Source of the DNA: an uncultured Oscillospiraceae bacterium
GTDB taxonomy: Bacteria > Bacillota > Clostridia > Oscillospirales > Oscillospiraceae
Length of the DNA: 42,739 nucleotides
Direction: 5' to 3'
Assembly (NCBI GenBank): GCA_949841465.1
Contig: CATKZW010000028.1
Coordinates: 1-42,739 of the forward strand
Below the pieces are notes generated by a model that was not told the origin of the DNA, ran no database searches, and saw only the letters and a list, made by a program, of their open reading frames with translations. Shown one piece after another: positions 2,479-42,739 of this stretch; position 1 is the stretch's first letter, and the number at the start of each line of letters is the position of its first letter. Made by a program: the position numbers and the translations under genes.

Positions 2479-4440
2479 ATGATACGAATTGGAATCGACT
2501 ACTATCCCGAACACTGGGAGCGTTCCATGTGGGAGGAAGACGCTGCCCGCATGGCGGCTCTCGGGACCCATGTGGTGCGTATTGGGGAGTTCGCTTGGAG
2601 CCGTATGGAACCCCGGGACGGGGAGTTTCACTTTGACTGGTTGGACGATGCCATTGAAGTGCTTTCCAGTCATAATATGAAGATTATTTTGGGTACGCCC
2701 ACCTGCTGTCCGCCCATGTGGCTGTACCAGGCCCATCCGGATACGCTGCGCTGGGAACGTGACGGAAAACCCACCGATACCGGCATCCGGGGCCACCGCT
2801 GCCTGACCAGCCCTACCTTCCGAAAGTATGCTGGCCGGATCGTGGGGGAGATGGCGAGGCGCTACGCTGGGAAGCCAGAGATTTTCGCTTGGCAGTTGGA
2901 CAACGAACTGGACAGCAATCAATGTACCTGTCCCGCCTGCCGCGCGGCGTTTCGGAGTTGGCTGAAGGAAAAATACGGCACTCTGGATGTCCTGAATAAA
3001 GCCTGGGGAAACGAGGTCTGGAGTGGCGAAATCAGTGACTGGGAGCAGATTCAGCCTTTGCTGGGAAGAGGCAACTGTCCCAACTGGTATAATCCGGCCT
3101 GGCTGTTGGACTATGAGCGGTTCTGCGCCCAGTCCACTGCGGATTTCGTCCAGTTTCAGTGTGATATGATTCGGAGCTTTGACCCCCAGGCCGTCATCAC
3201 CACCAACGCCTGCTTCCCTCAACATATGCCAGACTTCCACAGGGAGTTTGCCCCGCTGGATGTGGCCTCCTATGACAACTATCCACCCATCCTGCTGCCG
3301 GAGGATCCGGAGGAACCCTATTCCAACGCCTTCGCCCTGGATTTTGTCCGGGGCTTCAAACGGAAAAACTTCTGGATCATGGAGCAGCTGGGCGGTCCCA
3401 TGGGCTGCTGGGCCCCCATCTCCCCAGCTATGGAGCCGGGGATGCTGGAGGGGTATGCCCTCCAGGCTGTGGCCCACGGCGCGGATCTGCTCAGCTTCTT
3501 CCGCTGGCGCACCTCCCGCACCGGGGCGGAGATGTTTTGCCACGGCCTGCTGGATCACAACAACGTGCCCAACCGCCGTCTGAAGGAGCTGGAGCAGCTG
3601 TGCCGACGGTTGGAAAAGCTGCCGGGTTTGGGAGACACCACGGTACATAGCCAAGTGGCCATGCTTTACTCTGCGGATCAGGAGTTCGCGCTGAAAAACC
3701 AGGAACAGTCCAAGGGGTTTGCTTACTGGACACAGCTGCGGCGGTTCCACGATGCCTGCATGAACCTTGGGGTGGATCTGGACGTCATCGAGGAGCACGC
3801 CTCCCTGGAAGGCTACAAGGTGGTGATTGTTCCTACCCACTTCATCACTGAACCAGAGGTGGTGGCCCGCCTGGAGGACTTCGCAGGAAAAGGCGGCGCG
3901 GTGGTGGTCACCTGCCGCAGCGGCGTGAAGGACAAAAACGGCAACTGCATCTTAGGCCAGGAGCTGCCCACCCTGTTCCGGAATCTGTGCGGTTGCCATG
4001 TGACGGAATACGACGCCATCGGCCCCGCTGTCCAGAATTTAGTGGTGGAGCGGGGCGGTGATTACAAGATCACAGGCTGGTGCGACCTGATCGAGCCGGA
4101 CACCGCCCAGGTGCTGGCTCGGTACCAGGGGCGGTTCTACGGCGGCACTCCGGCCATCACCAAGAATCAGTTCGGAGCGGGCACCGCCTATTACGTGGGT
4201 ACCATCGGGGAACGAGCCATGTACCGCACCCTGCTGATTGAGATATTCCGGGGGAACGACATCCCCCATATGCTTTTGCCCCAGGGGGTGGAGTCGTCCA
4301 GCCGTGTTGGGGAAGATGGCCGCTACCAATTCTTTTTCAACAATACGGTTCACGGACAGAATCTCCGGCTGGATGGGCAGAAGGTTCATTTGCAGCCCTT
4401 TGAAATGAGAATCCTGACGCCGCAGGGAACATGGGCATAA
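2479..4440 (+). CDS. GH42 beta-galactosidase
   Basis: This 653-residue cytoplasmic protein has full GH42 length. The N-terminal TIM barrel starts with the family signature GIDYYPEHW (5-13). The acid/base is E143 in QLDNELDS and the nucleophile is E302 in FWIMEQLGGP. C108, C149, C151 and C154 match the four-cysteine zinc site of the Thermus A4 GH42 enzyme. A glutamine-amidotransferase-like trimerisation domain follows (about 390-590), then a short beta domain. It begins 18 bp after the GH2 gene and probably shares its mRNA. GH42 enzymes release terminal beta-galactose from short oligosaccharides, and some members act on alpha-L-arabinosides. The substrate cannot be fixed from sequence alone. 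Confidence 0.92.
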   Translation: MIRIGIDYYPEHWERSMWEEDAARMAALGTHVVRIGEFAWSRMEPRDGEFHFDWLDDAIEVLSSHNMKIILGTPTCCPPMWLYQAHPDTLRWERDGKPTDTGIRGHRCLTSPTFRKYAGRIVGEMARRYAGKPEIFAWQLDNELDSNQCTCPACRAAFRSWLKEKYGTLDVLNKAWGNEVWSGEISDWEQIQPLLGRGNCPNWYNPAWLLDYERFCAQSTADFVQFQCDMIRSFDPQAVITTNACFPQHMPDFHREFAPLDVASYDNYPPILLPEDPEEPYSNAFALDFVRGFKRKNFWIMEQLGGPMGCWAPISPAMEPGMLEGYALQAVAHGADLLSFFRWRTSRTGAEMFCHGLLDHNNVPNRRLKELEQLCRRLEKLPGLGDTTVHSQVAMLYSADQEFALKNQEQSKGFAYWTQLRRFHDACMNLGVDLDVIEEHASLEGYKVVIVPTHFITEPEVVARLEDFAGKGGAVVVTCRSGVKDKNGNCILGQELPTLFRNLCGCHVTEYDAIGPAVQNLVVERGGDYKITGWCDLIEPDTAQVLARYQGRFYGGTPAITKNQFGAGTAYYVGTIGERAMYRTLLIEIFRGNDIPHMLLPQGVESSSRVGEDGRYQFFFNNTVHGQNLRLDGQKVHLQPFEMRILTPQGTWA

Positions 4441-11730: not shown

Positions 11731-13578
11731 TCACCCTCCTTCCGCGGGCGGCGGCCCATCTTGTTTTTTTAGAAAATCGGGGATCGTTGCCAGCGGCTGG
11801 CCCGCCTGGGCTTCCTGGTGAACAGGGATACCGTGTTTCTGCGCAGACCGCTCCCGCTGACGGGAGCGGTCTGTCTTTGGTTCGTCTGCACCAAGCAAAA
11901 ACCTCTGCTTGATGGCTTCCTCCAGTTCCTGACATCCGGCGTAGTAGACCTTTCGTTGCCCATGCTCCGGGGTCTGATAGGGTTCCCCGAAGGTGATGCC
12001 CCAATCAAGAAACAGCCGCAGCTTCGTCCACATGGGATGGGAGCCGGTTTTCATTACCACAAACTCGCCCTTTGGAATGGACTTCAGCTCGTCCGGGGTC
12101 ATAAGGGCCCGTTCCGCCATCTGGAGAGATTGGCTGTTTTCTCCCTTACTCCGGCTTATGGAGCCAGACTGTACGGTATAGCTGCCGAGGGCCCGGGAGA
12201 GTACATCGGCGGTCTGGCTGTTGGGGGCAAAGCCGCCGAAAATCGTATCCTGGCAGTTGTCTTGAATGATTTCGGAGCCCTCTTTCCCATAGTTTTTCTC
12301 CAGTTGTGCCAGGGACTGGATGATGGGCAGCATGGTCAACTTCCGGGAGCGTCCGGCGCTGAACAGGGACAGCACATCGAAAGGTGGCATGGTGCCGAAC
12401 TCGTCGCAGAACAGCACCACCCGGTTCTTCAGCTTGCCGCCGTTTTCATCTGCCACAGAAAATAATTCGTGGGATAAATTCTGGATCATCAGCCCCGCCA
12501 TAAAGTTCTTGGTCTGATCCTCCTCGGGCAGTACCAGGAAGATGGCGGTTTTTTTACTGGCAAAGCTCTCGGCGTCAATGGGGCTGTCAAAGCAGATGGT
12601 CTGCTCCAGCTCCGTATCCAGGAAGGCATTCAGCCGGGACAGCACGGTGGACAGTACAGATGCCATAGCCTGCTCCGAGGTATTCAGCGCAGCCCCGGCG
12701 AACCACCGGGCCTTGTGCTCGGAGGGCAGGCGGCCCATCAGCACCTGAAAGCGGCTTTTCCCTTTGGTGCCGGAGGGCTCCAGCAGATCTTGTACCAGTT
12801 TGAAAACCGACACGATATGGCGGCGTTCCTGCATAGCGCCGTCAATTTTCTTGGGTGGCAGAAACTCCGCCAGCAGAAGAATCACGGCAGTGAGGAGCCC
12901 CTCGGCGGAGTCGTAAAAAAATGCGTTCTGCCCGAAGCTGTCCCCCTCTGGGTTGATGATGGTCTTGGACAGGATCTTGGCGTATTTCTCCGCTTTGGCC
13001 CGCGCTGCCAGGTCATCCGGGTTGGTCACCGCCTGATCCATGTAGGCGTTGGCCAGGGTCAAAAAGTTGAACCCATCCGAGCGGGTGGGGTTACGCAGAT
13101 CGATGATGGACACCTGGTAGCCGTAGTATTTCTGAGCAATGGCGCCGTAGTTCCGGGCAAGGTCGCCCTTGGTGTCCAGTGCCAGGAAACTCATGCCGCA
13201 GGCGCAGGCGTATTCCAGGTTGGGGTACAGGAAGAAGGCCGTCTTGCCCACGCCCGCCGCACCGATCATCAGGCAATGGATATCGTCGCTATCCACCAGG
13301 GCAGTGATCTTTCCATTTGTCCCCTGGGAGCCCAGCACGAGCCCTTGGACTTTAGGTAGTTTTTTCCCCTGCCGCCACTGGGCGGGGTGGAAGGGGACGC
13401 GGTGGAAGGTTTTGCTGATCTCCTTGGGTGTGGCCCAGCGGGCGGTGCCGTGCTGGCCGTCGCCCACGTGCTTGGACTTGATGCTGTCCAGCGACCCGCG
13501 CCCGGACAAAAAAGAAGCGCCGCCAATCAGCAACAGGCCGATTGCGGCGATGATCAGGATGATGAATTGTTGGGGCAT
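11731..13578 (-). CDS. virD4: VirD4/TraG-type coupling protein (conjugative ATPase)
   Basis: This is the type IV coupling protein that brings the relaxase-DNA complex to the type IV secretion channel. It is 615 residues from the chosen ATG (13578; 618 from GTG 13587). One N-terminal membrane segment (about residues 4-26) is followed by a TraG/VirD4 ATPase domain with Walker A GAAGVGKT (about 106-113) and Walker B VVLFCDEFG (about 387-395), plus the later conserved Q-S-LAQLEKNYG region. Numbers are relative to the ATG. The site GAGG 8 bp before the ATG supports this start. The family normally has two N-terminal membrane helices; here only one is clear, as in many Tn1549-like elements. It overlaps or abuts genes on both sides. 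Confidence 0.93.
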   Translation of the reverse strand: MPQQFIILIIAAIGLLLIGGASFLSGRGSLDSIKSKHVGDGQHGTARWATPKEISKTFHRVPFHPAQWRQGKKLPKVQGLVLGSQGTNGKITALVDSDDIHCLMIGAAGVGKTAFFLYPNLEYACACGMSFLALDTKGDLARNYGAIAQKYYGYQVSIIDLRNPTRSDGFNFLTLANAYMDQAVTNPDDLAARAKAEKYAKILSKTIINPEGDSFGQNAFFYDSAEGLLTAVILLLAEFLPPKKIDGAMQERRHIVSVFKLVQDLLEPSGTKGKSRFQVLMGRLPSEHKARWFAGAALNTSEQAMASVLSTVLSRLNAFLDTELEQTICFDSPIDAESFASKKTAIFLVLPEEDQTKNFMAGLMIQNLSHELFSVADENGGKLKNRVVLFCDEFGTMPPFDVLSLFSAGRSRKLTMLPIIQSLAQLEKNYGKEGSEIIQDNCQDTIFGGFAPNSQTADVLSRALGSYTVQSGSISRSKGENSQSLQMAERALMTPDELKSIPKGEFVVMKTGSHPMWTKLRLFLDWGITFGEPYQTPEHGQRKVYYAGCQELEEAIKQRFLLGADEPKTDRSRQRERSAQKHGIPVHQEAQAGQPLATIPDFLKKQDGPPPAEGG

Positions 13579-13588
13579 GATGCTCACC

Positions 13589-14884: not shown

Positions 14885-17254
14885 TCATTGCATCTGCTGC
14901 TCCTCATGATCGTCCGGCTTGTGGCCCATGGCGATCTTCTTTTCCCGGATTTTCCTTCTGAGCTTGCTGTCCACCGCCACCCGCATACTGGCTACAGGCT
15001 GGGGGCGCTGTTCCTGGAAGATGCGGCCCATGTGATAGAGGAGTGAAGCGGTTGACGAAAAAATGGAGCTGTACACACGATCCAGATAGTATTTGGCGTA
15101 CTGGTTGCCCTGCTCGGCGGACAGTTTCAGCCAGTGGACGGCCTGCTCCTGATCCTGGGGGATGTCCCCGCCCAGCAGATACGCCTTGCCCAATGTGTAC
15201 TGGGCGTATTGGTTTCCCTGCTCCGCACACTCTGCGAGCAGCTTCAGCGCCAGATCCACATCCTTGGGCACTGTCTCGGCACCGAGAAGCAGGAATTTGC
15301 CCAGTTGATACTTTGCCAGTGCATTGCCGCGCTGGGCTGACCTCTCCAGCCACGGCAGCGCCGCGGCCTCGTCTTGACCTATGCCCACCCCATGGAGGAG
15401 CATCCAGCCGATGCGGTACTGGAGCCGATCATCCGGTGACCTGTCCGCCATGATCTGAAACCCGGTGAACGCTTGGCGGAAATACTGGGCGGCGCGTTCT
15501 TCATCCGCCTCGCAGCCCAGCCCGTCCCGGGACAGCTTTCCCAGCTCAAAGGCGGCATATGGGAAGGTGGCCGCCTTGGCATAGAGTTCTCGCGCTGCGG
15601 CATAGTCCTGCTCCACGCCTTTGCCGTCCCGGTACAACCCGGCCAGAGTGTACTGCGCATACTTGTATCCGGCGTCTGCGGACTTCTCCAGCCATCGGGC
15701 GGCCTTCTCATAGTCCTGTTCTGCACCCAGCCCTGCGGTATACAGTCTGCCGATGCGGTACTGGGTGCAGCGGTCCGGCCCAGACCTTTCCGCTTCCAGG
15801 AATGCGGCCAGCGCTTTGGCGTACCATTCCTGCGCCAGCTCAGGATCAGGTTCCCGTCCCAGGCCCTCTGTGTACATCCGTCCCAGGTCGGCCATCGCCA
15901 GGGCATCCCCGCTTTCGGCCTCCTGGAACAGCAGGTCAAACGCCGCCGCAAAATCTGGCGGGCAATCCTCATCGCCCTGCAGAAGCTGACGGGCAGTACG
16001 GTAGCGACTTGTCCATTGAGCGTGAGGGGAACCTTCTCCGGCGTCGGCGGGCTCGTCCGCAGGCTCACCATCTGGCGGCTCATCCACAGGCTCGGGCTGA
16101 GCCGTGATATTGGGCGGTGGTACACGGCCAAGCCGCACAGCCTCCTGGATGACGATATTTTTGATCCGCTTGAACGCCTTTTGCCGGACGAGTGGGTCAT
16201 GCGGTGGCAGGTCGTCCTTGTACGTCCGCAGCACTTCCTCCTGCTCTCGGTACCACAGGTCATAGGCGGCGGCGATGCGGGGATCTTTCTCCAGCTCGGT
16301 CACGATTTCATCCACCAGGGACTTCACCGCTGGCGGCAGGTAGCCGTACTGCTTTTTGCCAGAGCAGTACACGAGGCGCTGGGCCAGCTCCACCATAAGC
16401 TGCTGGATGCGCTGGTTCTCCAACGTTCCAGTCTGCATCTCGGTGACGAGCTGTGCCATGACCTCTCCAGCATTCTCGGTGAGTTCATCCCGCCGCTGGG
16501 TCTGGCGCTGATAGATTGCAACGAGGTCTTGCTGAAAAATCTCCTTCGCCAGCATGGACTTGATGTCCGCGATGCCCTGCCTGGTGAGGAAGCCGGACTT
16601 GGCGTCTGCGCTGTAGCACACCATGTGAAGATGGGGATGGTGGCCCTCGTCATGAAAGGCCGCGTACCAGCGGAACTGCGCATCTGGGATCTTCATTGCC
16701 TTTGCCATATCCATGGCGTGAGCGGACAGCAGCTTGCGCCACCGTTCGGCGTTGTCGTACCCCAGCCGCGCGGCGTCCTCCCGGCGCAGAGAGATAATGG
16801 GCAGCCACACCACGCCGGGATGATGGGCCACCTCATCTGCCACCTGGGACAGTACCAGCGGGCCGTCATCGGCAGTGAATAGACCATGGGTGCCCAGCTT
16901 CTGCACGCGGGGACGGCTGGCAATGTAGTCCACGTAGTTTTCCTTTTTGGCAATCGCCTCGTAGTTGTCCTCGATAGCGCGGGTGATGAACTCCGAGGCG
17001 TTTCCCCGAGCGGGCGCGGCCTGGTAGTCCTCGTACTCGAACAGCCCACGGCTGGAGGGAAACTCCCGGAGGAGCTGCTCCACCAGCTTGACCTGTTTGT
17101 CCGTGGCAGGGAGCGCAGCCTTGCCGGAATCGATACGCTCTACACCGCTGCGGGTAGCGGCGTACTTGACGTAGTTGCCAAGATGGGCTGCGGCCTTTAC
17201 GCCGGCGCCCTTGATGTGCGGACACTTGAAAATGACGCGCGGCGTACACAGCAC
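14885..17254 (-). CDS. MobP-type relaxase fused to Sel1-like repeats
   Basis: This 789-residue conjugative relaxase nicks the element at oriT and is covalently carried with the DNA. The N-terminal relaxase domain (about 1-330) has the tyrosine-bearing YVKYAATR segment (28-35) and a metal-binding histidine cluster, FHDEGHHPHLHMV (H201, H205, H206, H208, H210). This is the MobP3/MobL pattern. An acidic, proline-rich linker (about 385-415) leads to about eight Sel1/TPR-like repeats (about 440-740), with repeated A-x-Y-x-LG-x-L-Y-x-x-G-x-G units. The C-terminus is basic. The start is uncertain: GTG 17254 directly overlaps a GGGAGG site, and no better in-frame start was found. Sel1 repeats probably mediate protein contacts in the relaxosome or with VirD4, an inference from fold. 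Confidence 0.9.
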   Translation of the reverse strand: MLCTPRVIFKCPHIKGAGVKAAAHLGNYVKYAATRSGVERIDSGKAALPATDKQVKLVEQLLREFPSSRGLFEYEDYQAAPARGNASEFITRAIEDNYEAIAKKENYVDYIASRPRVQKLGTHGLFTADDGPLVLSQVADEVAHHPGVVWLPIISLRREDAARLGYDNAERWRKLLSAHAMDMAKAMKIPDAQFRWYAAFHDEGHHPHLHMVCYSADAKSGFLTRQGIADIKSMLAKEIFQQDLVAIYQRQTQRRDELTENAGEVMAQLVTEMQTGTLENQRIQQLMVELAQRLVYCSGKKQYGYLPPAVKSLVDEIVTELEKDPRIAAAYDLWYREQEEVLRTYKDDLPPHDPLVRQKAFKRIKNIVIQEAVRLGRVPPPNITAQPEPVDEPPDGEPADEPADAGEGSPHAQWTSRYRTARQLLQGDEDCPPDFAAAFDLLFQEAESGDALAMADLGRMYTEGLGREPDPELAQEWYAKALAAFLEAERSGPDRCTQYRIGRLYTAGLGAEQDYEKAARWLEKSADAGYKYAQYTLAGLYRDGKGVEQDYAAARELYAKAATFPYAAFELGKLSRDGLGCEADEERAAQYFRQAFTGFQIMADRSPDDRLQYRIGWMLLHGVGIGQDEAAALPWLERSAQRGNALAKYQLGKFLLLGAETVPKDVDLALKLLAECAEQGNQYAQYTLGKAYLLGGDIPQDQEQAVHWLKLSAEQGNQYAKYYLDRVYSSIFSSTASLLYHMGRIFQEQRPQPVASMRVAVDSKLRRKIREKKIAMGHKPDDHEEQQMQ

Positions 17255-31484: not shown

Positions 31485-32354
31485 TTACGAGGCGCTTACC
31501 GCCGCCGCGACGATCTTGGTGGTGTTCACCGCCATCTGGGCGGTATGGACGGCGGAGGCCAGGCTGGCTCTGGTGGAGGTGTCCAGGCCGAAGGCTCCGG
31601 CGATCCGGGGCACCTCGCCCGCGGACAGCATCAGGCCCAGGCCCAGCAGGGCGTGGTCGCTGAATACCATGAGTCCTGCCACCAGAATGGTGGATTGCAG
31701 GAATGCGGTGAGGCACAGGCCGATGATCTGCTTGCACCAGTGGGTGAAGCCGTCGCTGTAGCCGCGGGGGACGCTGAACATATACAGCGACCCCACCGCG
31801 ATCTGGATGAGCAGGATGCCGCCCCGTTTCAAGTTGGCGAAGAACACCTTGAGTACGGCGTAGGCCATGAGGATCACACAGAACAGCATCATAATGGGGT
31901 TGAAGCTGGAGCCGCCAAAAATGAAGTCAATGCCCGAGGCGATGAGCCCTTCTGGCGTTGTGAGCTTGGTGATGATGCGCTGGCCCACGTCGCCGATGCT
32001 TGAACCAAGCCCGGTGATGGCGGAGGTGAGGCTGACCTGCAGCGATATGGAAAGCGCGTACAGCCGGACGGGGACGGTGGAAAACAGGCTGACCGCCATG
32101 AAGCCTTTGAGGCAGTTGATGGAGGTCTGGCGGATATTGCCCCGGCCCGAGGAATACTCAATGCCGAACTCGAAGCAGGACACCACCAGGCCAACGCCGA
32201 ACAGCGCCCAGCCCAGCTGGTTGAAAAACTGCACCACGCTCTGCACCCAGGGCAGGTCAAAGAGCTCCACGCCCATATTGCCCATGAGGCCGAAGAACGC
32301 GCCCAGAAAGCCCACAGCCTGGCTGTACGCCCAGTCCAAAAGCTCGTCCAGCAC
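31485..32354 (-). CDS. VirB6/TrbL-like conjugation membrane protein
   Basis: This polytopic membrane protein (289 residues from GTG 32354) has about six hydrophobic segments: around 10-30, 40-65, 85-110, 145-175, 180-200 and 212-240. The block QLGWALFGVGLVVSCFEFGIEY-SGRGN is characteristic of the TrbL/VirB6-like channel proteins of Tn1549-type elements. The family usually begins with a W-D-F-V-A-like segment, which is present in frame 10 codons upstream, from an ATT at 32384 right after an in-frame TGA. The real start may therefore be that ATT, with GTG 32354 the conservative choice. It is followed 16 bp later by the C5 methylase gene. Confidence 0.85.
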   Translation of the reverse strand: MLDELLDWAYSQAVGFLGAFFGLMGNMGVELFDLPWVQSVVQFFNQLGWALFGVGLVVSCFEFGIEYSSGRGNIRQTSINCLKGFMAVSLFSTVPVRLYALSISLQVSLTSAITGLGSSIGDVGQRIITKLTTPEGLIASGIDFIFGGSSFNPIMMLFCVILMAYAVLKVFFANLKRGGILLIQIAVGSLYMFSVPRGYSDGFTHWCKQIIGLCLTAFLQSTILVAGLMVFSDHALLGLGLMLSAGEVPRIAGAFGLDTSTRASLASAVHTAQMAVNTTKIVAAAVSAS

Positions 32355-33969: not shown

Positions 33970-36900
33970 TTAATATCCGGTCTTGGGGAGCGAGGGGATG
34001 ATGGGTTTGCCATAGACCTTGGTGGTCCAGCGGGTGACTGCCTGAATCCACTGGCCGTTATAGACGCCGCCCACGTCCGCGGTGTTGGTGAACTGGCTGC
34101 CGCCCTTCACGGTGTTCAGCACCTTGCAGTCCACCTTGGGGGCCTCCACTTGGCGGAAATTGGCGGGGACCACGCCGAACACGAACATAAACTCTGTGAC
34201 GTACTCATTGGAGGCCAGGCCCAGCGCCGTGGGGGAGGCGTCCAGAGTATAGTTTTTGGCCGTGCTCAGGTTGTCGTACATGGTGCGGTATTCGCCATTG
34301 GTCAGGTTGGTCTTGTACACCACCTTATAATTGCCCACGGCGTTGTAGGTGCCGGTGAAGATCTTGTACAGCCGGACCGCCTGGGTGGGCAGGGTATCCC
34401 TCCAGTAGAAGGAGGTCAGCGCGGTGGTGGAGTTGTTGCCGATCTCGGAGAAGGTATAGCGCAGGCCCTGACCGGGCATGACCTCGGCATAGCCGGTCTT
34501 TTTGATGCTGACGTTGGTGGACAGGGCCTTGTTGGTCATGGCCACCTTGACGATCTGCCCGGCGTGCTCGATCTCTGCCTCAATGGGGGTCTTGTCCAGG
34601 CCGTAATGATCAGCGGCCTTGGACTCTACAATCTGATAACGGCCCAGGGGCAGGGGCTTGGACACGGCCACACCGTTTTTGTCGGTGCGGACGGTGTCCA
34701 CCAGATTGCCGGTGCGGTAGTGGTAGATCTCGAACTCGGTGCCGGGGATGGGTGTGCCAGCGGGCCAGCCGTTCATGGAGTTGTAGTCCTCGGAGGTCTT
34801 TTTGATCTGGATCTGACCTGTGATCGGGGTGTTCTGCCACTCAATGAGGGTGGTTTCGCCCGCCTTGATGTAAACGGTCTTCATCTGCTTGTCTGGAATG
34901 TAACCCTCGTTCTCCAGCTCACGCAGGTAGTAGCGTCCGCCGTCCGTCAGACCCTCGATGTACACGTAGCCGTGGTCATCGGAGGTGTATTGACCGATGG
35001 GCGTATTCTTGCTATCATAGAGCAGGAAGGTGACGCCGTAGAGTTCCTCGCCGGTGACGCTGTCGGTCTTATGAATCAAAATTCCGGAGAAGGGCGTGTT
35101 TTTCACCGTCAAGGTAGTAGTTTTTCCGTCTTTCACGGTGAAATAGTGCGGTGTGTCGTCCAGCTTGAACTCCTTTGGGCACTCGGTTTCCACGGCGTAA
35201 TAGTCGCCCGCCTCCAGGTTGACGTGGACGCGGCCATCCTTGCCAGTGGTGACAGTATCGATCAGCCCGCCGTCCTTCTTTCTGATCTCAAAGGTGACGC
35301 CGGAAATGCGCTGGGTGCTGTCGCTCTCGGACACCTTGATCAGCTCCAAACCGCCTTCGCTCTTGTTGAAGAACGTCAGTGTCTGAGCCACACCGCTCTT
35401 GATGAGGATGGACTGGGGCGTGGTGTCCAGCACATAGCCGCTGACGGTCTTGGTTTCCTTGGCGGTGATGGTGGTGCCGGGGGTGATGTCAGTGATCACG
35501 ATGCGGCCATTTTTATCGGTGATGTACTCGCCATTGTTGGGGCCGAGCACCGCGCCGCTGCTGTCGGTCACCAGGAAGGTGACCCCCTGGATGGGATCGG
35601 TGGTGCCGTCCACATACTTCTGGATGGTCAAAGTCTGCTTGGGGGCGTTGTAGAAGGTCAACGTTTGGGTGTCCTGGGGATTGACCTTCACCGTCTGGGT
35701 CTGGGTGGCGGGGTCGATGGTGTAACCATCGATGGTCCGGGTTTCCTTGACCACAATGGTGCCGGTGACGCCGGAAATATGGATCTCTCCATGAGCGTCG
35801 GTGGTGTACAGGCCGTTGGAGGACAGGTGGCCATCAGCGGTATCCACATAGCCGCCGCCCGCGTAGGTTAGCTCGAACTCGACGCCAGCCAGGGGTTCGC
35901 TAGTGGCCTTGTCCAGTTTGCGGATGATGAGTTCGCCAGCCCGCTTGTTCCAGAAGGTGAGTTCGGGCGCGCCCTGGCCCGCCTTGATCTTTACGGATTT
36001 CGGGGCGCCGTCCAGCACGAAGCCGTCCACGGTCTTGATCTCCCGGGCGGTGATCGTAGTGCCGGGCTCCAGGCCCTCCACCACGATTTCGCCCTTGGAA
36101 TCGGTGTAGAACGTGCCGTCGCCGGGGCCAATAGGGGTGCCGGAGCCATCAACCAGCTTAAAGGCCACGCCAGCCAACGGCTCGTTCTGGGTGCCCTCAA
36201 TATATTTGTGGATGGTGAGGGTCATGGTGGGGTCGTTCTCAAAGGTGAGGCCGTTGCCGCCAGTGCCGCCGATCACGGTGCTGCTGCCCGGATTGACCAC
36301 GGTGCCGCCGCTGGAGCTGCCGGTCAGGGTGTTGGAACCGTTTTTCACGGTAATGATCTGGGGTGTGGTGTTGAGCACATAGCCGGAGGGCACTTTGGTT
36401 TCCGTCACCACCACGGTGCTGTTGGGCGCCAGACCGGTGACGGTTGCGGTGCCGTCCTTCCCGGTGGTGCAGGTGGCCAGGATATTCCCGCTGCTGTCCT
36501 TGACGGTGAATTGGGTGTTGGGCACCGGCTTCCCGGTGACGGAGTCCAGCTTGGTGATGATCAAAGAGCACAGGGGATCGTTGTAGAAGTACAGCGTCTG
36601 CGTGTCGTCCGGCTTGACCTCCACGGTCTGGGTCCGGTTGGTGCCGCTGATGATATAGCCGTCGATGCTGGCCACCTCGGTGACCACCAGGGTGCCGACC
36701 ACGCCGTTGAGCGTGATTTGACCGTTCTCGTCGGTGTAGTACAGGCCGTTGCTGGAGATTTTCCCATTTTCATCGGGCAAAAATTCGCCGGTGCTGGTGG
36801 TGATCTTAAAGGTCACACCCTCCAGCGGGGTCTTTTTGTCCGCGGAGCTGCGCTTGTTGATCACGAGGCTGCCAGCTTTGGCGTTCTCAAAGATCAGGCT

Positions 36901-39795
36901 GTTGGCCGTGTCCTGCTTGATTTTGATGGTCTTGGGCGTCATATCCCGGACGTAGCCGTTGGGGGCCTTCTCCTCGGTGACCACCAGCACCTGGCCCGGC
37001 TGGAGGCCGGTGATGGTGATGAGGCCGTTGCGGTCAGAGGTGTACCGCCCGTTGTTGGTGCCGATGGCCGCGCCATCCTCGTCGGTCACATGGAACACCG
37101 CGCCGGGCAGCGGGTCCTTGCCGGTGCTCTGCTTCAGGATGGTGAGGGAGCAGTCCCGCTTGTTCCAGAAGGTCAGTTCGGGAGCGGGCTGGCCTGCGGT
37201 CACCTTGACAGTCTTGGGGGTACCGTCAAGCACGAAGCCCTCCACAGTCTTGACCTCGCGCACGGTGAGGGTGGTGCCCGGCTCAATGCCGGTTACCTGG
37301 ATCTCGCCCTCTTTGTTGGTGTAATAAACGCCGTCGCCGGTGCCGACCGCCGCGCCGGAACCGTCCACAACCTTGAACGCGACGCCGGACAGCGGCTCGT
37401 TCTGGGTACCCTCGATGTATTTGTGGATGGTGAGCGTCATCTTGGGATCGTTCTCAAAGGTGAGATCGTTGCCATTGCCGGTCCCGGTGCTGGTACTGGT
37501 GCCGCTGGTCACGCTGTTGCCGGCGCCGTTTTTCACGGTGATGGTTTTGGGCGTGGTGTTCAGGACGTAGCCGTCAGGCACGCTGACCTCCGACACCACT
37601 ACGGTGCTGCCGGGCACGAGGCCGGTAACGGTGGCGGCGCCATCCTTCCCGGTGATGCAGCGGGCCAGCACGTTGCCACTGCCATCCTTCACCGCGAAAA
37701 CCGTTCCGGGGACGGGCTTGCCCGTCACAGAGTCCAGTTTCGTGATGGTGAGAGAGCACAGAGGCTCATTCAGGAAAACCAGCGTCTGGGTGTCCATGGG
37801 GTTGACGGTGACGGTCTGGGTCTGGGTTGCCGGGTCGATGGTATAGCCCGGAGCGGCCTTGATCTCCTTGGCCACGATGGTGCCGGTGATGCCGGAGATG
37901 CGGATTTCTCCGTTGTCGTTGGTGGTGTACAGGCCATTGGAGGACAGATGGCCGTTGTCGTTATCCACAAAACCACCTGTGGCGTAGGTGAGCTGGAACT
38001 GCGCGCCGGAGATCATCTCGCCGGACACCTTGTCCTTCTTCTGAATTACCAATGTCCCGGCTCGTTTGTTCCAGAAGGTCAAAGTCTGAGCCTGACCGCC
38101 CACGATCTTGATATCCTGGGGGGTGCCGTCGAGGACATAGCCCTCCACAGTCTTGATTTCGCGTACCTTCACGGTGGTGCCGGGCTCAATGCCGTCTAGG
38201 ACGATCTCGCCCGCTTTGTCTGTGTAATACACGCCGTCGTCCGGGCCGACCGCCGCGCCAGCGCCGTCCACGACCTTAAAAGCCACGCCGGACAGGGGCT
38301 CGTTCTCGGTGCCCTCAATAAACTTCCTGATGATGAGGGTGGTGCCGGGCTCGTTGTCAAAGATCAGGCTGTTGGCCACGCCGGAGCGGACCACGATATT
38401 TTTCGGGGTCTGGTCTAAAACGTACCCGGTGGGGGCGCGCTGCTCCGACACGACGATGGTGGAGTTAGGGGCCAGGCCGGATACGGTGACGGTGCCATCG
38501 GCGCCGGTGGTGTACAGGCCGTTGTTGGGACCAATCACATGGCCGGAGCTGTCCGTCACCAAAAATTCAGCGCCCCGCAGAGGCTTCTTGGTCACAGCGT
38601 CCCGCTTCAAAATGGTCAGGGTGCAGAGGGGATCGTCGTAAAAGCGCAGTGTCTGCGTGTCCCCAGCGTTCACCACCACGGTCTGGGGCGTCGGGTCCTT
38701 CCGGTAATTGTCCGGGGCCATATCCTCAGTCACCACGTAGGTGCCGGGGAGCAGCTTGGACAGCACGATCTGTCCATTAATATCGGTGGTATAGAGGCCG
38801 TTGGAGGAGGTCATCCCCTCATTGTCGGGCGTCAGCTCCCCGTTGGCCATCATGATCTTGAACCGGGCCCCTTCCAAGGGCTGACGGGTGACTTTATCGT
38901 ACTTTTCAACGATGAGCCCCCCTTTTTTGGTGTTTTTGATCACCACGGTCTGCGTATCGCCGCCTTGCCCAATGACTACGTTGGTGGAGGGCGTGTCGAT
39001 CACATACCCGCCGTCCGGGGCCTTGATCTCGTTAATGACATAAGCGCCGGGGGCAAGGTTGGAAATGCGGATCTCGCCCTGGGAATCGGTAGTGAAAATG
39101 CCGTTGGAAGTCAGGCTGCTGGTGCCAATCACACCGTCCAGACCGACCTCGCAGCCTGCGGCGGTGGTGACGCGGAACTCCGCGCCAGGCAGAACATCGC
39201 CAGTCTGGGAATCCCGCTTCTGGATGATCAGTTTACCCTTCGGCTGGTTTTTGAAGGTCAGGGAAACGGTGCGGCCCTCTTTGATCTGAATCGTCTGCGA
39301 CTGGGTGTCGATGATGAAACCCGCAGGGGCCTTGACCTCGGTGACAATCACGCTCTTGCCGGGCTTCAGGCCCTCAATGCGGATCTCGCCGTTTTCATCT
39401 GTTCTGTAGATGCCGTTGCCGTCCCCGATGAAGCTGCCGTCCGCGTAAGTGATTTTAAATTCGGCATTCTGCAGCGTCACAGAGGGATTCGTGGCGCAGA
39501 CCTTCCGGATCAGCAGGTTTCCGTCCGGCATATTGTTGAAGCGGACGGTGACCACGCTCTGCTCCCCGTTGTCCGCGATGAACACGGTTTCAGAGGAATT
39601 GATGATGGAGTAGCCGTCTGCGGGGTCTACCTCCTCCACCACGTAGGCTCCGGGCTCCAGTCCGGTCCACATGGCGATGCCGTTGGCCTTGGTCACCTTC
39701 TGCCCAATGACGGTGCCGCCCGTGCCGCTGGTGCCTGCCAGATAGCGCAGCTGGAAGGTACAGCCGGGCAGGGCCTCATGGGTGACGGAATCGTA
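33970..39795 (-). CDS. Giant CnaB-repeat surface adhesin, 3' exon
   Basis: This part encodes about 1,941 residues, arranged as 18 tandem CnaB-type beta-sandwich modules of about 85-115 residues. Each has an opening strand with lysine (for example LIIRK), a G-x-Y-T-T-D-x-x-G turn, a P-G-T-x-V-V-x-E strand with the catalytic-type glutamate and a closing strand ending in L-x-F-x-N. The K, E and N pattern is that of intramolecular isopeptide-bond domains. Three module types (LCSLTI, IEGTxNEPL and AGxLVIxK) recur in order. A C-terminal domain of about 190 residues ends SLPKTGY-stop, with a sortase motif but no membrane anchor. The gene is interrupted at its 5' side by the group II intron, resuming with Y-D-S-V-T. 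It is probably a surface or mating-pair-contact protein. Confidence 0.9.
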   Translation of the reverse strand, partial: YDSVTHEALPGCTFQLRYLAGTSGTGGTVIGQKVTKANGIAMWTGLEPGAYVVEEVDPADGYSIINSSETVFIADNGEQSVVTVRFNNMPDGNLLIRKVCATNPSVTLQNAEFKITYADGSFIGDGNGIYRTDENGEIRIEGLKPGKSVIVTEVKAPAGFIIDTQSQTIQIKEGRTVSLTFKNQPKGKLIIQKRDSQTGDVLPGAEFRVTTAAGCEVGLDGVIGTSSLTSNGIFTTDSQGEIRISNLAPGAYVINEIKAPDGGYVIDTPSTNVVIGQGGDTQTVVIKNTKKGGLIVEKYDKVTRQPLEGARFKIMMANGELTPDNEGMTSSNGLYTTDINGQIVLSKLLPGTYVVTEDMAPDNYRKDPTPQTVVVNAGDTQTLRFYDDPLCTLTILKRDAVTKKPLRGAEFLVTDSSGHVIGPNNGLYTTGADGTVTVSGLAPNSTIVVSEQRAPTGYVLDQTPKNIVVRSGVANSLIFDNEPGTTLIIRKFIEGTENEPLSGVAFKVVDGAGAAVGPDDGVYYTDKAGEIVLDGIEPGTTVKVREIKTVEGYVLDGTPQDIKIVGGQAQTLTFWNKRAGTLVIQKKDKVSGEMISGAQFQLTYATGGFVDNDNGHLSSNGLYTTNDNGEIRISGITGTIVAKEIKAAPGYTIDPATQTQTVTVNPMDTQTLVFLNEPLCSLTITKLDSVTGKPVPGTVFAVKDGSGNVLARCITGKDGAATVTGLVPGSTVVVSEVSVPDGYVLNTTPKTITVKNGAGNSVTSGTSTSTGTGNGNDLTFENDPKMTLTIHKYIEGTQNEPLSGVAFKVVDGSGAAVGTGDGVYYTNKEGEIQVTGIEPGTTLTVREVKTVEGFVLDGTPKTVKVTAGQPAPELTFWNKRDCSLTILKQSTGKDPLPGAVFHVTDEDGAAIGTNNGRYTSDRNGLITITGLQPGQVLVVTEEKAPNGYVRDMTPKTIKIKQDTANSLIFENAKAGSLVINKRSSADKKTPLEGVTFKITTSTGEFLPDENGKISSNGLYYTDENGQITLNGVVGTLVVTEVASIDGYIISGTNRTQTVEVKPDDTQTLYFYNDPLCSLIITKLDSVTGKPVPNTQFTVKDSSGNILATCTTGKDGTATVTGLAPNSTVVVTETKVPSGYVLNTTPQIITVKNGSNTLTGSSSGGTVVNPGSSTVIGGTGGNGLTFENDPTMTLTIHKYIEGTQNEPLAGVAFKLVDGSGTPIGPGDGTFYTDSKGEIVVEGLEPGTTITAREIKTVDGFVLDGAPKSVKIKAGQGAPELTFWNKRAGELIIRKLDKATSEPLAGVEFELTYAGGGYVDTADGHLSSNGLYTTDAHGEIHISGVTGTIVVKETRTIDGYTIDPATQTQTVKVNPQDTQTLTFYNAPKQTLTIQKYVDGTTDPIQGVTFLVTDSSGAVLGPNNGEYITDKNGRIVITDITPGTTITAKETKTVSGYVLDTTPQSILIKSGVAQTLTFFNKSEGGLELIKVSESDSTQRISGVTFEIRKKDGGLIDTVTTGKDGRVHVNLEAGDYYAVETECPKEFKLDDTPHYFTVKDGKTTTLTVKNTPFSGILIHKTDSVTGEELYGVTFLLYDSKNTPIGQYTSDDHGYVYIEGLTDGGRYYLRELENEGYIPDKQMKTVYIKAGETTLIEWQNTPITGQIQIKKTSEDYNSMNGWPAGTPIPGTEFEIYHYRTGNLVDTVRTDKNGVAVSKPLPLGRYQIVESKAADHYGLDKTPIEAEIEHAGQIVKVAMTNKALSTNVSIKKTGYAEVMPGQGLRYTFSEIGNNSTTALTSFYWRDTLPTQAVRLYKIFTGTYNAVGNYKVVYKTNLTNGEYRTMYDNLSTAKNYTLDASPTALGLASNEYVTEFMFVFGVVPANFRQVEAPKVDCKVLNTVKGGSQFTNTADVGGVYNGQWIQAVTRWTTKVYGKPIIPSLPKTGY

Positions 39796-39869
39796 ATAGC
39801 GATAGGTAATCCGCCGCTTTTACTGCTCTTATGAGAGAACAGCAGTCAGAGCGGATTTTCCCCCGCTTC

Positions 39870-39903
39870 GCACCGTGCGTGCGGCTTTCACCGCACACGG
39901 CGC
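39870..39903 (-). ncRNA. Group II intron domain V
   Basis: The coding strand reads a 34-nt hairpin, GCGCCGTGTGCGG, TGAAAG loop side and the complementary CCGCACGCACGGTGC (partly quoted). This is the length and shape of domain V, the catalytic core of group II introns. It lies 74 nt before the proposed 3' splice site. Confidence 0.85.
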
Positions 39904-41804
39904 TCCATCAATGCAGATTGATTGTTGCGTGTATGTGAAGGAACCAGTTTTTCCCTATAACCGATAATTTTTTTCTGTGCTTTTACATCAAATTCGCTGA
40001 TATCTTGGCTGAGGTTATTTACCGCTGTGAAGCACTTCTTATGGAGCGAAACCAAATTGTTGACGCGATTCACCTTGTCCAGTGGAAGATTCGGGTTAAT
40101 GCGGTGTGCCCATGGCGCGGCTGAAATCAGCCATCCGCCGCAAACCCGGCACCTGAGTTTGTCACGATTGAGAGCATAAGCCCGGTTCATGATGAACTCG
40201 AAATTATTGAGTTTTCCCCACTGTCCGTAGCTGGCACCCCTCGCCGCTTTGTCAGGATACATTTCATCAAGACGCGCATTGATACGTTTCTTTTTCGTGC
40301 GCTGAAAATATGCTTGTCTCCCGGCTTCGGTGTAGGGTGTCTCGGCTTGGTTTTTGTAGCGCGTCTGTTCCCACCTGCAAAAGGTGAGGGCGGTAAAGCC
40401 GACATAAATATCGCGGTACTTCACTGAAGGAATCTTTTGCTTATACTGTTGGTGGATATGGGGAAGATTTTGCGTTTGATTTGCTGGAATCCACTTCCCC
40501 TTGTATTGCTTCAAACGGCGCATTGCCGCAAGCTGTAGCCGCCTTCCATGTTTATCCATGGAAACGCTCACCCACGTACAGCATTGATTGTATTGGATAA
40601 TCCCTCGTACTTTGCTGTTGATACGGTTTATTTCACCAATCAACTGCTCCCGGCTATAACATTCCGGGATATTTTTGATTTCCTCCGCGATTTGGTCAAC
40701 TTTCCGCTTGAGTCTGCCTCTGTCTGGAATCGTTCTTGAGATATAGCCTCTGCGGGATTTGCCCCGAACCATTTTGAACTCATAGCCCAGGAACTTGATG
40801 TACTTCTTTCGGATATCTGTTATCAGCGTTTTCTCTTGGGATAATGTCAGCTTCATTTTGCTGTGAAGAAAGGTTTGCAACCGGGCCCTCCACGCCTCGG
40901 CATGGGCGCGGGTGTCTGTGATGATGACAAAATCATCCGCGTAACGGACGAGGAAACCAGGGGTCAGGGACGTTCGCTTGCGAAATGCGGTATACTTGGT
41001 GTTCTGGGCGCCGTAAGGGCGTTTGGTTTTCTTGCTCTCCCACTGTTTGGCAATCCATTCGTCCATTATGTCTAAGTAGACATTTGCCAGCAGTGGGCTG
41101 ATTAGCCCGCCCTGTGGTGTCCCTTCCTCGTTTATCTCACATTCATCCATAATCCCGGCTTTCAGCATGGCCTTGATGATTTGCAGTACCCGTCTGTCTC
41201 TCACGCCCATGTGATAGAGGCGTTTGAGAAGAATCGCGTGGTCTATACGGTCAAAGCATTTGCTGATATCGCCCTCGACAATCCAGTAATAGCCCGTGTG
41301 GTGGACAAGCAATTTTGCCCGTTCCAATGCCATGGGTGCGTCCCGCATGGGCCGGAAACCATAAGAATGGGCAAAGAATTGCGCTTCAAATATGGGTTCC
41401 AGCACGATTCTCATGCACTCCTGTACGATTCTGTCCCTTATGGTGGGAATGCCCAGCGGGCGCTTTTCGGCTTTCCCCGGCTTGTCGATATACACCCGGC
41501 GTATTTTCTGCGGCTCAAAGTGTTTGAATGCGCTTTGAATATCCCGAATGACCCACGAATGGGAGTGTTGCAGATAATCTCTGCGCATGGTTTTGGAATC
41601 CACGCCGGGAGTTTCACTGCCACGGTTGCTTTTGATATTGTGGATTGCTGTTGTAATGGTCGCTTCTGCTGACATGATTTCCAGCAGGCCCTTGAACGCT
41701 GGCCTTCCGCCTGCGTCATAGACCTCCTTGCTGTGCTGATACAGTTTGTCTTGGATTTCGCGTAGTTGGGTTTCGGTTTTTGGGTAGTTGAATTGTTGTG
41801 CCAT
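39888..41804 (-). CDS. ltrA: Group II intron reverse transcriptase/maturase with HNH endonuclease
   Basis: This 638-residue intron-encoded protein (ATG 41804, GGGAGG 8 bp upstream; GTG 41810 is 2 bp after that site and unlikely) is a group II intron reverse transcriptase. RT motifs are present: EGDISKCFD (catalytic Asp), TPQGGLISPLLANVYLD, and YADD (about 288-291 in this numbering). A maturase/X region follows, then an HNH-type endonuclease region with CRVC (about 552-555) and HINPNLP-type residues, including late H and C (about 588-591). It splices and mobilises the surrounding intron. The frame ends inside domain V (stop at 39888-39890), so its last residues are encoded by catalytic RNA. 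Confidence 0.93.
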   Translation of the reverse strand: MAQQFNYPKTETQLREIQDKLYQHSKEVYDAGGRPAFKGLLEIMSAEATITTAIHNIKSNRGSETPGVDSKTMRRDYLQHSHSWVIRDIQSAFKHFEPQKIRRVYIDKPGKAEKRPLGIPTIRDRIVQECMRIVLEPIFEAQFFAHSYGFRPMRDAPMALERAKLLVHHTGYYWIVEGDISKCFDRIDHAILLKRLYHMGVRDRRVLQIIKAMLKAGIMDECEINEEGTPQGGLISPLLANVYLDIMDEWIAKQWESKKTKRPYGAQNTKYTAFRKRTSLTPGFLVRYADDFVIITDTRAHAEAWRARLQTFLHSKMKLTLSQEKTLITDIRKKYIKFLGYEFKMVRGKSRRGYISRTIPDRGRLKRKVDQIAEEIKNIPECYSREQLIGEINRINSKVRGIIQYNQCCTWVSVSMDKHGRRLQLAAMRRLKQYKGKWIPANQTQNLPHIHQQYKQKIPSVKYRDIYVGFTALTFCRWEQTRYKNQAETPYTEAGRQAYFQRTKKKRINARLDEMYPDKAARGASYGQWGKLNNFEFIMNRAYALNRDKLRCRVCGGWLISAAPWAHRINPNLPLDKVNRVNNLVSLHKKCFTAVNNLSQDISEFDVKAQKKIIGYREKLVPSHTRNNQSALMERRVR

Positions 41805-42173
41805 ACGCACCGCCTCCCTTCGGAATTGGTGTTTCTGGTGTTAGTCAGGTATGCCTACGGCTTCCTCAACTTTCTGTTCACATACGAATCTGCACTGACT
41901 ATGCCCCTTTGCTCCGCCCGCCTTATTATTGCGGACATCATCGCTACTACGGGCTGCTGCCCCATGGATGAACGGGTCATTTCCTACCCGTGCGGCGGAG
42001 GTGCCACTCCACTTACTTCAACAAGTTGAAGTGCCGTCCATGGTTCCTTTGTTCCCTATGCTTTAGCTTTACATATCGGTTTTAGCCCATCCCTTTAGCC
42101 CGGCTGCCATCTTTGGCTTGTGTGATATTCTGCCAAAGACATTCGACCTAAAATGGTTTTCTGCCGTTTTCCA

Positions 42174-42180
42174 CGAGAAA
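42174..42180 (-). other. EBS1 candidate of the intron
   Basis: Read on the coding strand, TTTCTCG can pair over seven positions (two as G-U) with the last seven bases of the 5' exon, TGAGAAG. It lies about 356 nt inside the intron, a normal location for EBS1 in domain I. This supports the proposed 5' splice site but is only a short match. Confidence 0.4.
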
Positions 42181-42536
42181 AGGTTTGAACGGCGGCAGCA
42201 CTCCACATGGGAGAGGGTGGCTGTATTATCACCCCATCGTTCACGAGCCGTACACTCAGGATTATGTCGGTTGCAACAAAACATACTGGACATGACCGAT
42301 TTATAGCCTCCTGCGGCGCAATACCGTCTCAGATATCGCCTCCGCTCTTTACCGAGCTTCGTACATCCCGCATGACACTACGGGCGCACGTCGGAGTATC
42401 AGAGTTTTGGTTACCCGTCACACCGGGTCAGGCAGGTTCTGCCCCTGCCGAATCAAGCATAGAGTTCAGATTTCTTGCGAAATCTGCCTTGTTTTATTGC
42501 GTATTTCTACGCAGATTGTCAAGGAACAAAGCGCGC

Positions 42537-42739
42537 CTTCTCAACGACAATCGCGTTTTTTGGGGTATTTTCAAAGGTAACAGTGTTGTCTTTGCCCGCC
42601 GCCAGATAAATTTCCTGGGTGTCGGGCTGCTTGATGGTGAAGCCGGGGGCGGGCTCCAGCTCCTTGATCTTGTACCAGCCCGTTTCCTGCCGCTCCAGGT
42701 GGATCTGCCCCTGGGCGTCGGTGTAGAAAATGCCAAGGT
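42537..42739 (-). CDS. Giant CnaB adhesin, 5' exon (partial)
   Basis: About 67 codons are visible up to the window edge; the start of the gene is outside. The frame reads a module end with YTDAQGQIHLE, TGWYKIKELEPAPGF, TVTFENTP, then the opening of the next module NAIVVEK. There the frame hits the intron and would stop a few codons later without splicing. The 3' part (33970-39795) continues with YDSVT, completing the normal first strand of a CnaB module. The gene is at least about 2,009 codons long within the window. Confidence 0.85.

Follow-up and report, generated by a model that had tools for sequence, protein, structure and literature searches.

The DNA analysed here, called the window below, is the whole 42,739-nucleotide (nt) stretch of contig CATKZW010000028.1 from an uncultured Oscillospiraceae bacterium. 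It carries a group II intron within the gene of a giant adhesin made of CnaB (SpaA) repeats. The source genome is assembled as 3.09 Mb in 136 contigs and is 92.9% complete. The intron, the two exons of the adhesin and the exon-binding (EBS) and intron-binding (IBS) sites by which the intron pairs with its 5' exon were placed as follows.

42537..42739, minus strand: 5' exon of the giant CnaB adhesin, 203 nt, open in frame, ending ...NAIVVEK; 98% identical to positions 3860-4062 of C24
42544..42548, minus strand: IBS2 in the 5' exon, positions -12 to -8; 5 of 5 positions pair, one as G-U
42537..42543, minus strand: IBS1 in the 5' exon, positions -7 to -1; 7 of 7 positions pair, two as G-U
42536..39796, minus strand: complete group II intron, 2741 nt, from Rfam matches and an end-to-end match to the C24 copy and relatives
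42469-42300, minus strand: ribozyme domain I-IV region, RF02004, 40.5 bits, E 1.9e-5, cut-off 34.5
42236..42240, minus strand: EBS2, intron nt 297-301, pairing with IBS2 and covarying with the exon over 22 introns
42174..42180, minus strand: EBS1, intron nt 357-363, pairing with IBS1 and covarying with the exon over 22 introns
41804-39888, minus strand: intron-encoded reverse transcriptase/maturase, 638 amino acids (aa), intact, with YADD; RVT_1 and TIGR04416 matches
39905-39796, minus strand: domains V and VI, RF00029, 57.7 bits, E 6.6e-9, cut-off 40
39803, minus strand: candidate branch point, an A left unpaired in the consensus fold, 8 bases from the intron 3' end
33970..39795, minus strand: 3' exon, 1941 aa, open in frame, with 18 SpaA stretches, ending LPKTGY

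The visible 5' exon is limited to 203 nt: the window stops at the contig end inside the gene, and the start of this gene copy is not seen.

An earlier note, made from the letters of the window, had described a group II intron with a domain V and a maturase inside a CnaB repeat and had proposed a covariance search as a check. The search matched Rfam RF00029 and RF02004, both on the minus strand, and the intron protein matched RVT_1 and the TIGR04416 group II reverse transcriptase/maturase model (307.8 bits, cut-off 300), in agreement with that description. The best PDB matches of the protein were LtrA (176 bits), GsI-IIC (160 bits) and the 6me0 maturase (122 bits), which do not decide the intron class. 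An HNH endonuclease domain occurs in many, not all, group II introns; Pfam HNH gave zero match in the window intron protein, CxxC/H/N-like residues being seen by eye only. A consensus fold of domains V and VI from 16 introns contained 39 pairs, 11 of which had changed at least once on both sides, with most domain V pairs invariant. The fold leaves the A 8 bases before the 3' end unpaired, fitting a predicted branch point. Group II introns share the boundary consensus 5' GUGYG and 3' AY. The 3' end of the window intron, CTAT, agrees with AY; its 5' end is GCGCG, as in several relatives, other relatives having GTGCG.

The exon junction was compared with paralogous adhesin genes of the same genome. 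On C24 the 5' exon (3860-4062) abuts the 3' exon (from 4063) with nothing between them, and identity to the window exons is 98.0% over 203 nt on the 5' side and 94.3% over 513 nt on the 3' side. The joined frame reads NAIVVEK↓YDSVT (arrow, junction) in the window prediction and in C24, and the same junction was found as NAIIVEK↓YDSVT on C75 and NGIIVEK↓YDSVT on C80. These intron-less homologues give the boundaries that the earlier note had predicted, and its claim that no codon is lost or gained holds in all three. C24 carries an intron copy of its own, which starts at the end of those 513 nt at another CnaB site, IQI↓KEGRTVS, and is 82.8% identical to the window intron over its full length, first base to last base; at IQI↓KEGRTVS the window has no interruption. 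Both junctions are codon-exact, and the window and C24 genes are reciprocal empty-site controls within one genome. The intron boundaries 42536 and 39796 were thereby checked twice, by the joined exons of C24 and by the end-to-end alignment of its intron copy. C75 and C80 each carry an adhesin gene truncated by a contig end, and neither gene has an intron at either site; of the four adhesin genes found in the genome, three are without the intron at the window site.

Relatives of the intron were collected from public genomes. The window intron protein matched 24 loci in the named genome collection; Anaerotruncus sp. G3(2012), Oscillibacter sp. 1-3 and Flintibacter muris DSM 110149 are among the strains that have this intron lineage elsewhere, at sites of their own. 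Intron DNA matches of any length were found in 12 of 60 relatives, 14 of 400 family genomes and 3 of 394 order genomes, and within five genera in 6 of 86, 1 of 20, 2 of 34, 5 of 25 and 9 of 64 genomes; these sets overlap, their E-value limits differ and the source genome itself is counted where drawn. Introns with both ends in one locus numbered 22 after removal of five duplicates (L038, L039, L018, L060 and L063). Several of these share a site (e.g. L016, L017, L030 and L059), so counts with one intron per site are also given; the 22 occupy 15 distinct sites.

Guide regions were located over the 22 introns, EBS1 pairing with exon positions -7 to -1 and EBS2 with -12 to -8. Pairing was found at 246 of 264 positions, compared with a mean of 139 (standard deviation 9.7, maximum 183) in 20000 exon shuffles; with one intron per site, 169 of 180 positions paired (mean 94 and maximum 131 in 50000 shuffles). 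The pairing columns had originally been picked on the same data, and the test was repeated with the best column re-chosen in each of 150 shuffles. Observed pairing was then 6.36 of 7 for IBS1 (shuffle maximum 4.73) and 4.82 of 5 for IBS2 (shuffle maximum 3.45). In the window intron 12 of 12 positions pair, three as G-U. The covariation fixes the 5' junction and shows that the targeting of each copy is specific to the site it occupies. For an IBS3/delta' pairing at +1, no column stood out over the 22 introns.

Departures from Watson-Crick pairing were then sorted by codon position. In the 18 phase-0 introns, where the third codon positions are -1, -4, -7 and -10, non-Watson-Crick positions made up 30 of 72 third positions and 4 of 144 others (p 6e-13); taken one per site, the counts were 22 of 52 and 4 of 104. 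No excess appeared when these 18 introns were counted in the other two frames. Read back as a target, the guide encodes the host's own tetrapeptide in 14 of the 18. Over the 72 codons, guide-implied and host codons differ synonymously in 27 cases and nonsynonymously in 5; random placement of the differences gave a mean of 25 nonsynonymous, and none of 5000 trials was as low as 5. The departures may reflect either silent exon drift since insertion or homing into silent variants of the same gene. On either route the interrupted gene must still be under selection for its protein, and hence be spliced; the interrupted genes do appear to be kept under such selection, as expected if spliced. Codon-locked departures of the guides would in this way be evidence, readable in DNA, that genes split by an intron remain selected as proteins.

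By site, 13 of the 15 insertions are in phase 0, one is in phase 2 (YFWG↓GKS, in an NlpC/P60 gene) and one is ambiguous by a base. The last (L028/L029) was not counted as a clean phase, the Rfam 3' end and the 5' exon frame differing by one base; the phase-0 call for L031 uses the 3' exon and nine codons of the 5' exon. A further nine or so phase-0 sites and one phase-2 site come, less surely, from single-ended loci, several of which have two open frames. For three or four copies (L035/L102, L103, L104 and, more distant, L027) a location in coding sequence is not clear. Host families were confirmed by family search for SpaA/CnaB adhesins (L013, L021), type IV secretion system (T4SS) coupling proteins (L016, L022), an NlpC/P60 protein (L064) and a CD1108-family mobile-element protein (L014). 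The L024 host is VirB4-like on weak P-loop matches, integrase and TrbL-like hosts were assigned by eye only, and the family search gave zero match for the host genes of L020 and L031. For 14 of the 22 introns, at 10 of the 15 sites, a homologue that runs across the junction without interruption was obtained, some of these homologues being weak.

From this evidence the window intron is very probably a retromobile group II intron, inserted in the CnaB-repeat adhesin gene of a conjugative element, its site selected through EBS/IBS pairing, and a selfish passenger made nearly harmless by the in-frame splicing expected of it. Transcription of the adhesin would yield a precursor RNA containing the intron. 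Ribosomes in the host frame would stop at the sixth intron codon, a stop read from the sequence, and the maturase would be translated from its own start in a separate reading frame. The ribozyme, assisted by the maturase, would join the exons at VVEK↓YDSV, and the adhesin gene would probably not be lost. The freed ribonucleoprotein would home into empty copies of the site, and the lineage would home to the same conserved peptide-coding sites of related elements, with occasional retargeting by guide change. The separate reading frame, like the stop, is read from the sequence; splicing in cells and mobility are what we infer, from known group II biology. The lineage of the window appears to sit exactly between codons of conserved proteins, adhesins and coupling proteins among them, with intron-less controls in the same genome.

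Several points weigh against this reading. The 5' end GCGCG is one base off the usual GUGYG. Eight of the 22 introns (5 of the 15 sites) have no uninterrupted homologue among the fetched loci; among those obtained, L031 has a weak one (63% over 49 aa), and for L061 and L062 the homologues (62-66%) may represent different CnaB modules. Codon-locking is a family-level signal, one of the three non-Watson-Crick positions of the window (-12) being not a third position and changing V to I, and in four phase-2 introns the counts, 6 of 16 third positions and 5 of 32 elsewhere, were not significant (p 0.09). The ratio of nonsynonymous to synonymous substitution rates (dN/dS) is low in the exons (0.08 against C24, 0.13 against C80), which may predate the insertion. 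For the intron protein dN/dS was 0.06-0.12 in six of seven comparisons with relatives, the seventh being saturated; several dS values exceed 1, so these figures are rough. This purifying selection on the intron protein speaks for the reading and indicates that the lineage has been active. On the opposing side again, C24 has a frameshifted intron protein and a truncated adhesin, so some insertions are in dying genes.

At L009:4576-7430, the host adhesin of the C24 intron meets a stop 41 codons past the intron and is fused, by eye, to a DNA methylase remnant. Within the cycle proposed above, this copy would represent the end stage of decay.

The window insertion might itself be dead or dying, with splicing no longer efficient and the adhesin effectively knocked out. 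The state of the C24 sister copy, with its frameshifted protein and truncated host gene, and an assembly in 136 contigs with the window ending inside the gene are in keeping with this. Against it, the window intron protein is intact with YADD, domains V and VI are intact, the guide pairs at 12 of 12 positions (three G-U) and the 1941-aa 3' exon is open. We consider a dying insertion very unlikely.

The earlier note had regarded the intron as a candidate regulatory switch, with adhesin made only when the intron RNA splices. In such a switch the cell would control splicing and thereby restrict adhesin to some conditions. Full-length adhesin does require splicing, the intron giving a host-frame stop as its sixth codon. 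The lineage is, however, promiscuous over unrelated genes (coupling-protein, VirB4-like and NlpC/P60 genes, with a distant relative in a phage tail gene), of the four adhesin genes found in the source genome three lack the intron at this site, and the intron protein at the orthologous adhesin site of L025 is cut short at 498 aa. A further comparison is provided by C.te.I1 of C. tetani, which joins exons of a surface protein, as is expected of the window intron, but encodes no intron protein, has its 5' site displaced by 8 nt and undergoes four alternative splicing reactions (PMC3919590). The junction in the window is unshifted, and in place of several domains V/VI a single RF00029 match was obtained, with no second domain V in the 42.7-kb window at the Rfam gathering score; the window therefore shows no alternative 3' site like those of C. 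tetani. In C. tetani, unspliced RNA was the majority in all growth and stress conditions tested (PMC3919590). The switch proposal is not supported by these findings, and we rate it as highly improbable.

A different consequence for the host would follow if spliced intron RNA re-attacked the host mRNA, lowering adhesin and so mating, which is compatible with a selfish passenger. Such an effect is reported for Ll.LtrB and its relaxase gene in Lactococcus lactis, with EBS/IBS pairing as cause and the IBS in spliced exons open to attack by free intron (PMC6003770). Ll.LtrB resembles the window intron in lying within a conjugation gene; it differs in the host gene, and LtrA is only a distant relative of the window protein (176 bits). 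The window guide pairs with its exon at 12 of 12 positions, but G-U pairs at 3 of the 12 may weaken re-targeting. By analogy this dampening is possible, if rather unlikely, and for the passenger reading we infer that adhesin output changes little overall, perhaps with a modest fall like that reported for Ll.LtrB.

The adhesin gene was placed in its wider context by family searches over the window, which gave the following features.

11731..13587, minus strand: T4SS coupling protein (VirD4/TraG), PF02534, E 1.6e-41
13153..13392, minus strand: within the coupling-protein gene, the uninterrupted counterpart of the C↓LMIGA(S/A)GVGK site at which relatives have the same intron lineage
14885..17254, minus strand: MobP3-family relaxase, NF041499, 385 bits
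25741..27600, minus strand: VirB4-like conjugation ATPase, P-loop_TraG 37.8 bits; NF045975 258 bits, under its cut-off of 590
31485..32354, minus strand: TrbL-type conjugal transfer protein, PF19511, E 1e-134

A DNA methylase gene adjoins the adhesin and is on the same strand as the conjugation genes, and glycoside hydrolases are encoded in the first 10 kb of the window. The conjugative element is recognised here by its genes. The earlier note had contrasted this insertion with introns in other mobile elements. That contrast is not supported: genes for conjugation (coupling protein, MobP3 relaxase, VirB4-like ATPase and TrbL) surround the adhesin gene, so the window intron is to be read as an intron in a mobile element, its usual habitat, though within coding sequence. 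Bacterial group II introns are usually described as lying outside housekeeping genes or hidden in other mobile elements (PMC4424553, PMC8919778).

Insertion phase was also examined in a sister lineage drawn from RF02004 matches, which 15 of the 300 family genomes and 22 of the 299 phylum genomes contain. Many of these introns start GTGCGACACGTT or near it, and their hosts include coupling proteins, a VirB4-like ATPase, a RecD-like helicase, recA and others. Phase was called where the longest upstream open frame had at least 70 codons and was 1.5 times the next. Of 43 rows treated by this fixed rule, 7 had no boundary and 34 had a boundary with at most 4 mismatches to the consensus start; these 34 gave 18 in phase 1, one in phase 2 (L170) and 15 undecided. 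Phase 1 accounts for 18 of the 19 decided cases, which are not 19 independent events, since rows share sites (recA, coupling protein). An earlier hand-picked count of 20 of 20 in phase 1, within 27 introns (25 rows plus L110 and L111), was replaced by the fixed-rule count; the hand-picked set left out L170 (phase 2) and L154 (phase 1, boundary-dependent) and held L138, whose boundary misfits. A recognisable EBS1 was present in 16 of 27 sister introns tried, of which the 13 whose frame was clear entered the count. In these 13 clear phase-1 introns non-Watson-Crick positions made up 16 of 48 third positions and 12 of 85 elsewhere (p 0.009). Among other relatives assessed by eye, L118 is in phase 0, L115 in phase 2, L113 in phase 0 or undecided, and L114 and L119 are unclear.

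Insertion phase thus appears strongly biased by lineage, not absolute. We advance tentatively, and at less than even confidence, that phase is an inherited lineage trait, nearly always 0 in the lineage of the window and nearly always 1 in the sister, with guides tuned to coding sequence and their mismatches on wobble positions, so that homing is in effect to conserved peptides and not to fixed DNA words. If true, homing to peptides would let introns cross between diverged conjugative elements with the host protein kept readable. As an alternative, target preference acting over codon periodicity could explain much of the phase bias. The target motif (T at -8, Y at -7, W at +5) occurs in 26.4 kb of coding sequence at 728:85:262 for phases 0:1:2, a comparison that is partly circular, the motif having been derived from mostly phase-0 sites. 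A lineage-biased phase would predict how RNA-guided retroelements choose or keep coding targets, and bears on how introns came into genes. Across the lineage of the window, the sixth or seventh intron codon is a stop when read in the host frame. A ribosome shield, in which an early host-frame stop keeps ribosomes out of the ribozyme, is not claimed; by eye, the actual phase of sister introns gave the earliest stop in 9 of 17, one third being expected.

The intron itself is of a known kind. Among the closest known systems is the orf14 intron of Tn5397 in Clostridioides difficile, which also encodes its own protein and lies inside a gene of a conjugative element in Clostridia; it is reported to splice in vivo and to need its protein (PMC4430133). 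It differs in its host gene, orf14 and not a CnaB adhesin, and is likened here by description, not by sequence. The recA intron of Geobacillus kaustophilus, a title cited in PMC4424553, similarly lies inside a conserved coding gene; it is likened by that title only, and the RF02004 introns found here in recA (L160, L163) are in phase 1, outside the window's phase-0 lineage. What is new is the codon-locked guides together with the lineage-biased phase. Among the open-licence titles and abstract openings listed, none dealt with an insertion phase particular to a lineage, or with codon-locked EBS/IBS, for group II introns, a weak negative.

Further copies and hosts were noted in the course of the analysis. 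L025, from a rabbit-gut Oscillospiraceae metagenome-assembled genome (isolate name Lapin), carries an orthologous adhesin with two introns. In L025:1-828 the 3' end of a divergent intron occupies nt 1-76 and an open exon of 752 nt separates it from a window-type intron at 829; the upstream, divergent intron reads as phase 1. LPxTG-like motifs (LPKTGY, LPRTGY, LPTTGY and LPKTGF) lie at, or some tens of residues from, the adhesin ends in the window (33970-34000), L011, L013 and L025, and by eye these ends are without the membrane tail usual in sortase substrates.

Among plasmid records, none of the 191 that matched covers 80% of the intron. Four phage records matched at E 1e-60 or better, each with less than 60% identity. 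On the viral contig L074 a distant relative (62% protein identity) lies in phase 0 in the gene of a phi13-type phage major tail protein. In Colidextribacter sp. OB.20 (L019 from about 7873 onward, and L107) the intron is broken near nt 2602-2605, just before domain V, by an insert of about 10 kb with an open reading frame that by eye resembles a replication initiator. The intron match in L034 ends at the same point. L036 had been considered as an intron with a 4.5-kb insert and was rejected, the stretch being a masked run of N.

In the sister lineage, L170 has a 5' exon open for 147 codons in phase 2, and the codon across its junction would be a stop, which gives the look of an intron placed inside a stop codon. 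In the source genome, a coupling-protein gene on another element is apparently split by a phase-1 sister-lineage intron across two contigs, with the 5' half on C104 (L129) and the 3' half on C113 (L012:3256-2196), in frame by eye. Two RF02004 matches about 0.9 kb apart were found in each of two further genomes (L156/L168 in G970, L157/L167 in G1089); the exon beside one such match looks like recA by eye and may represent a housekeeping gene with two introns.

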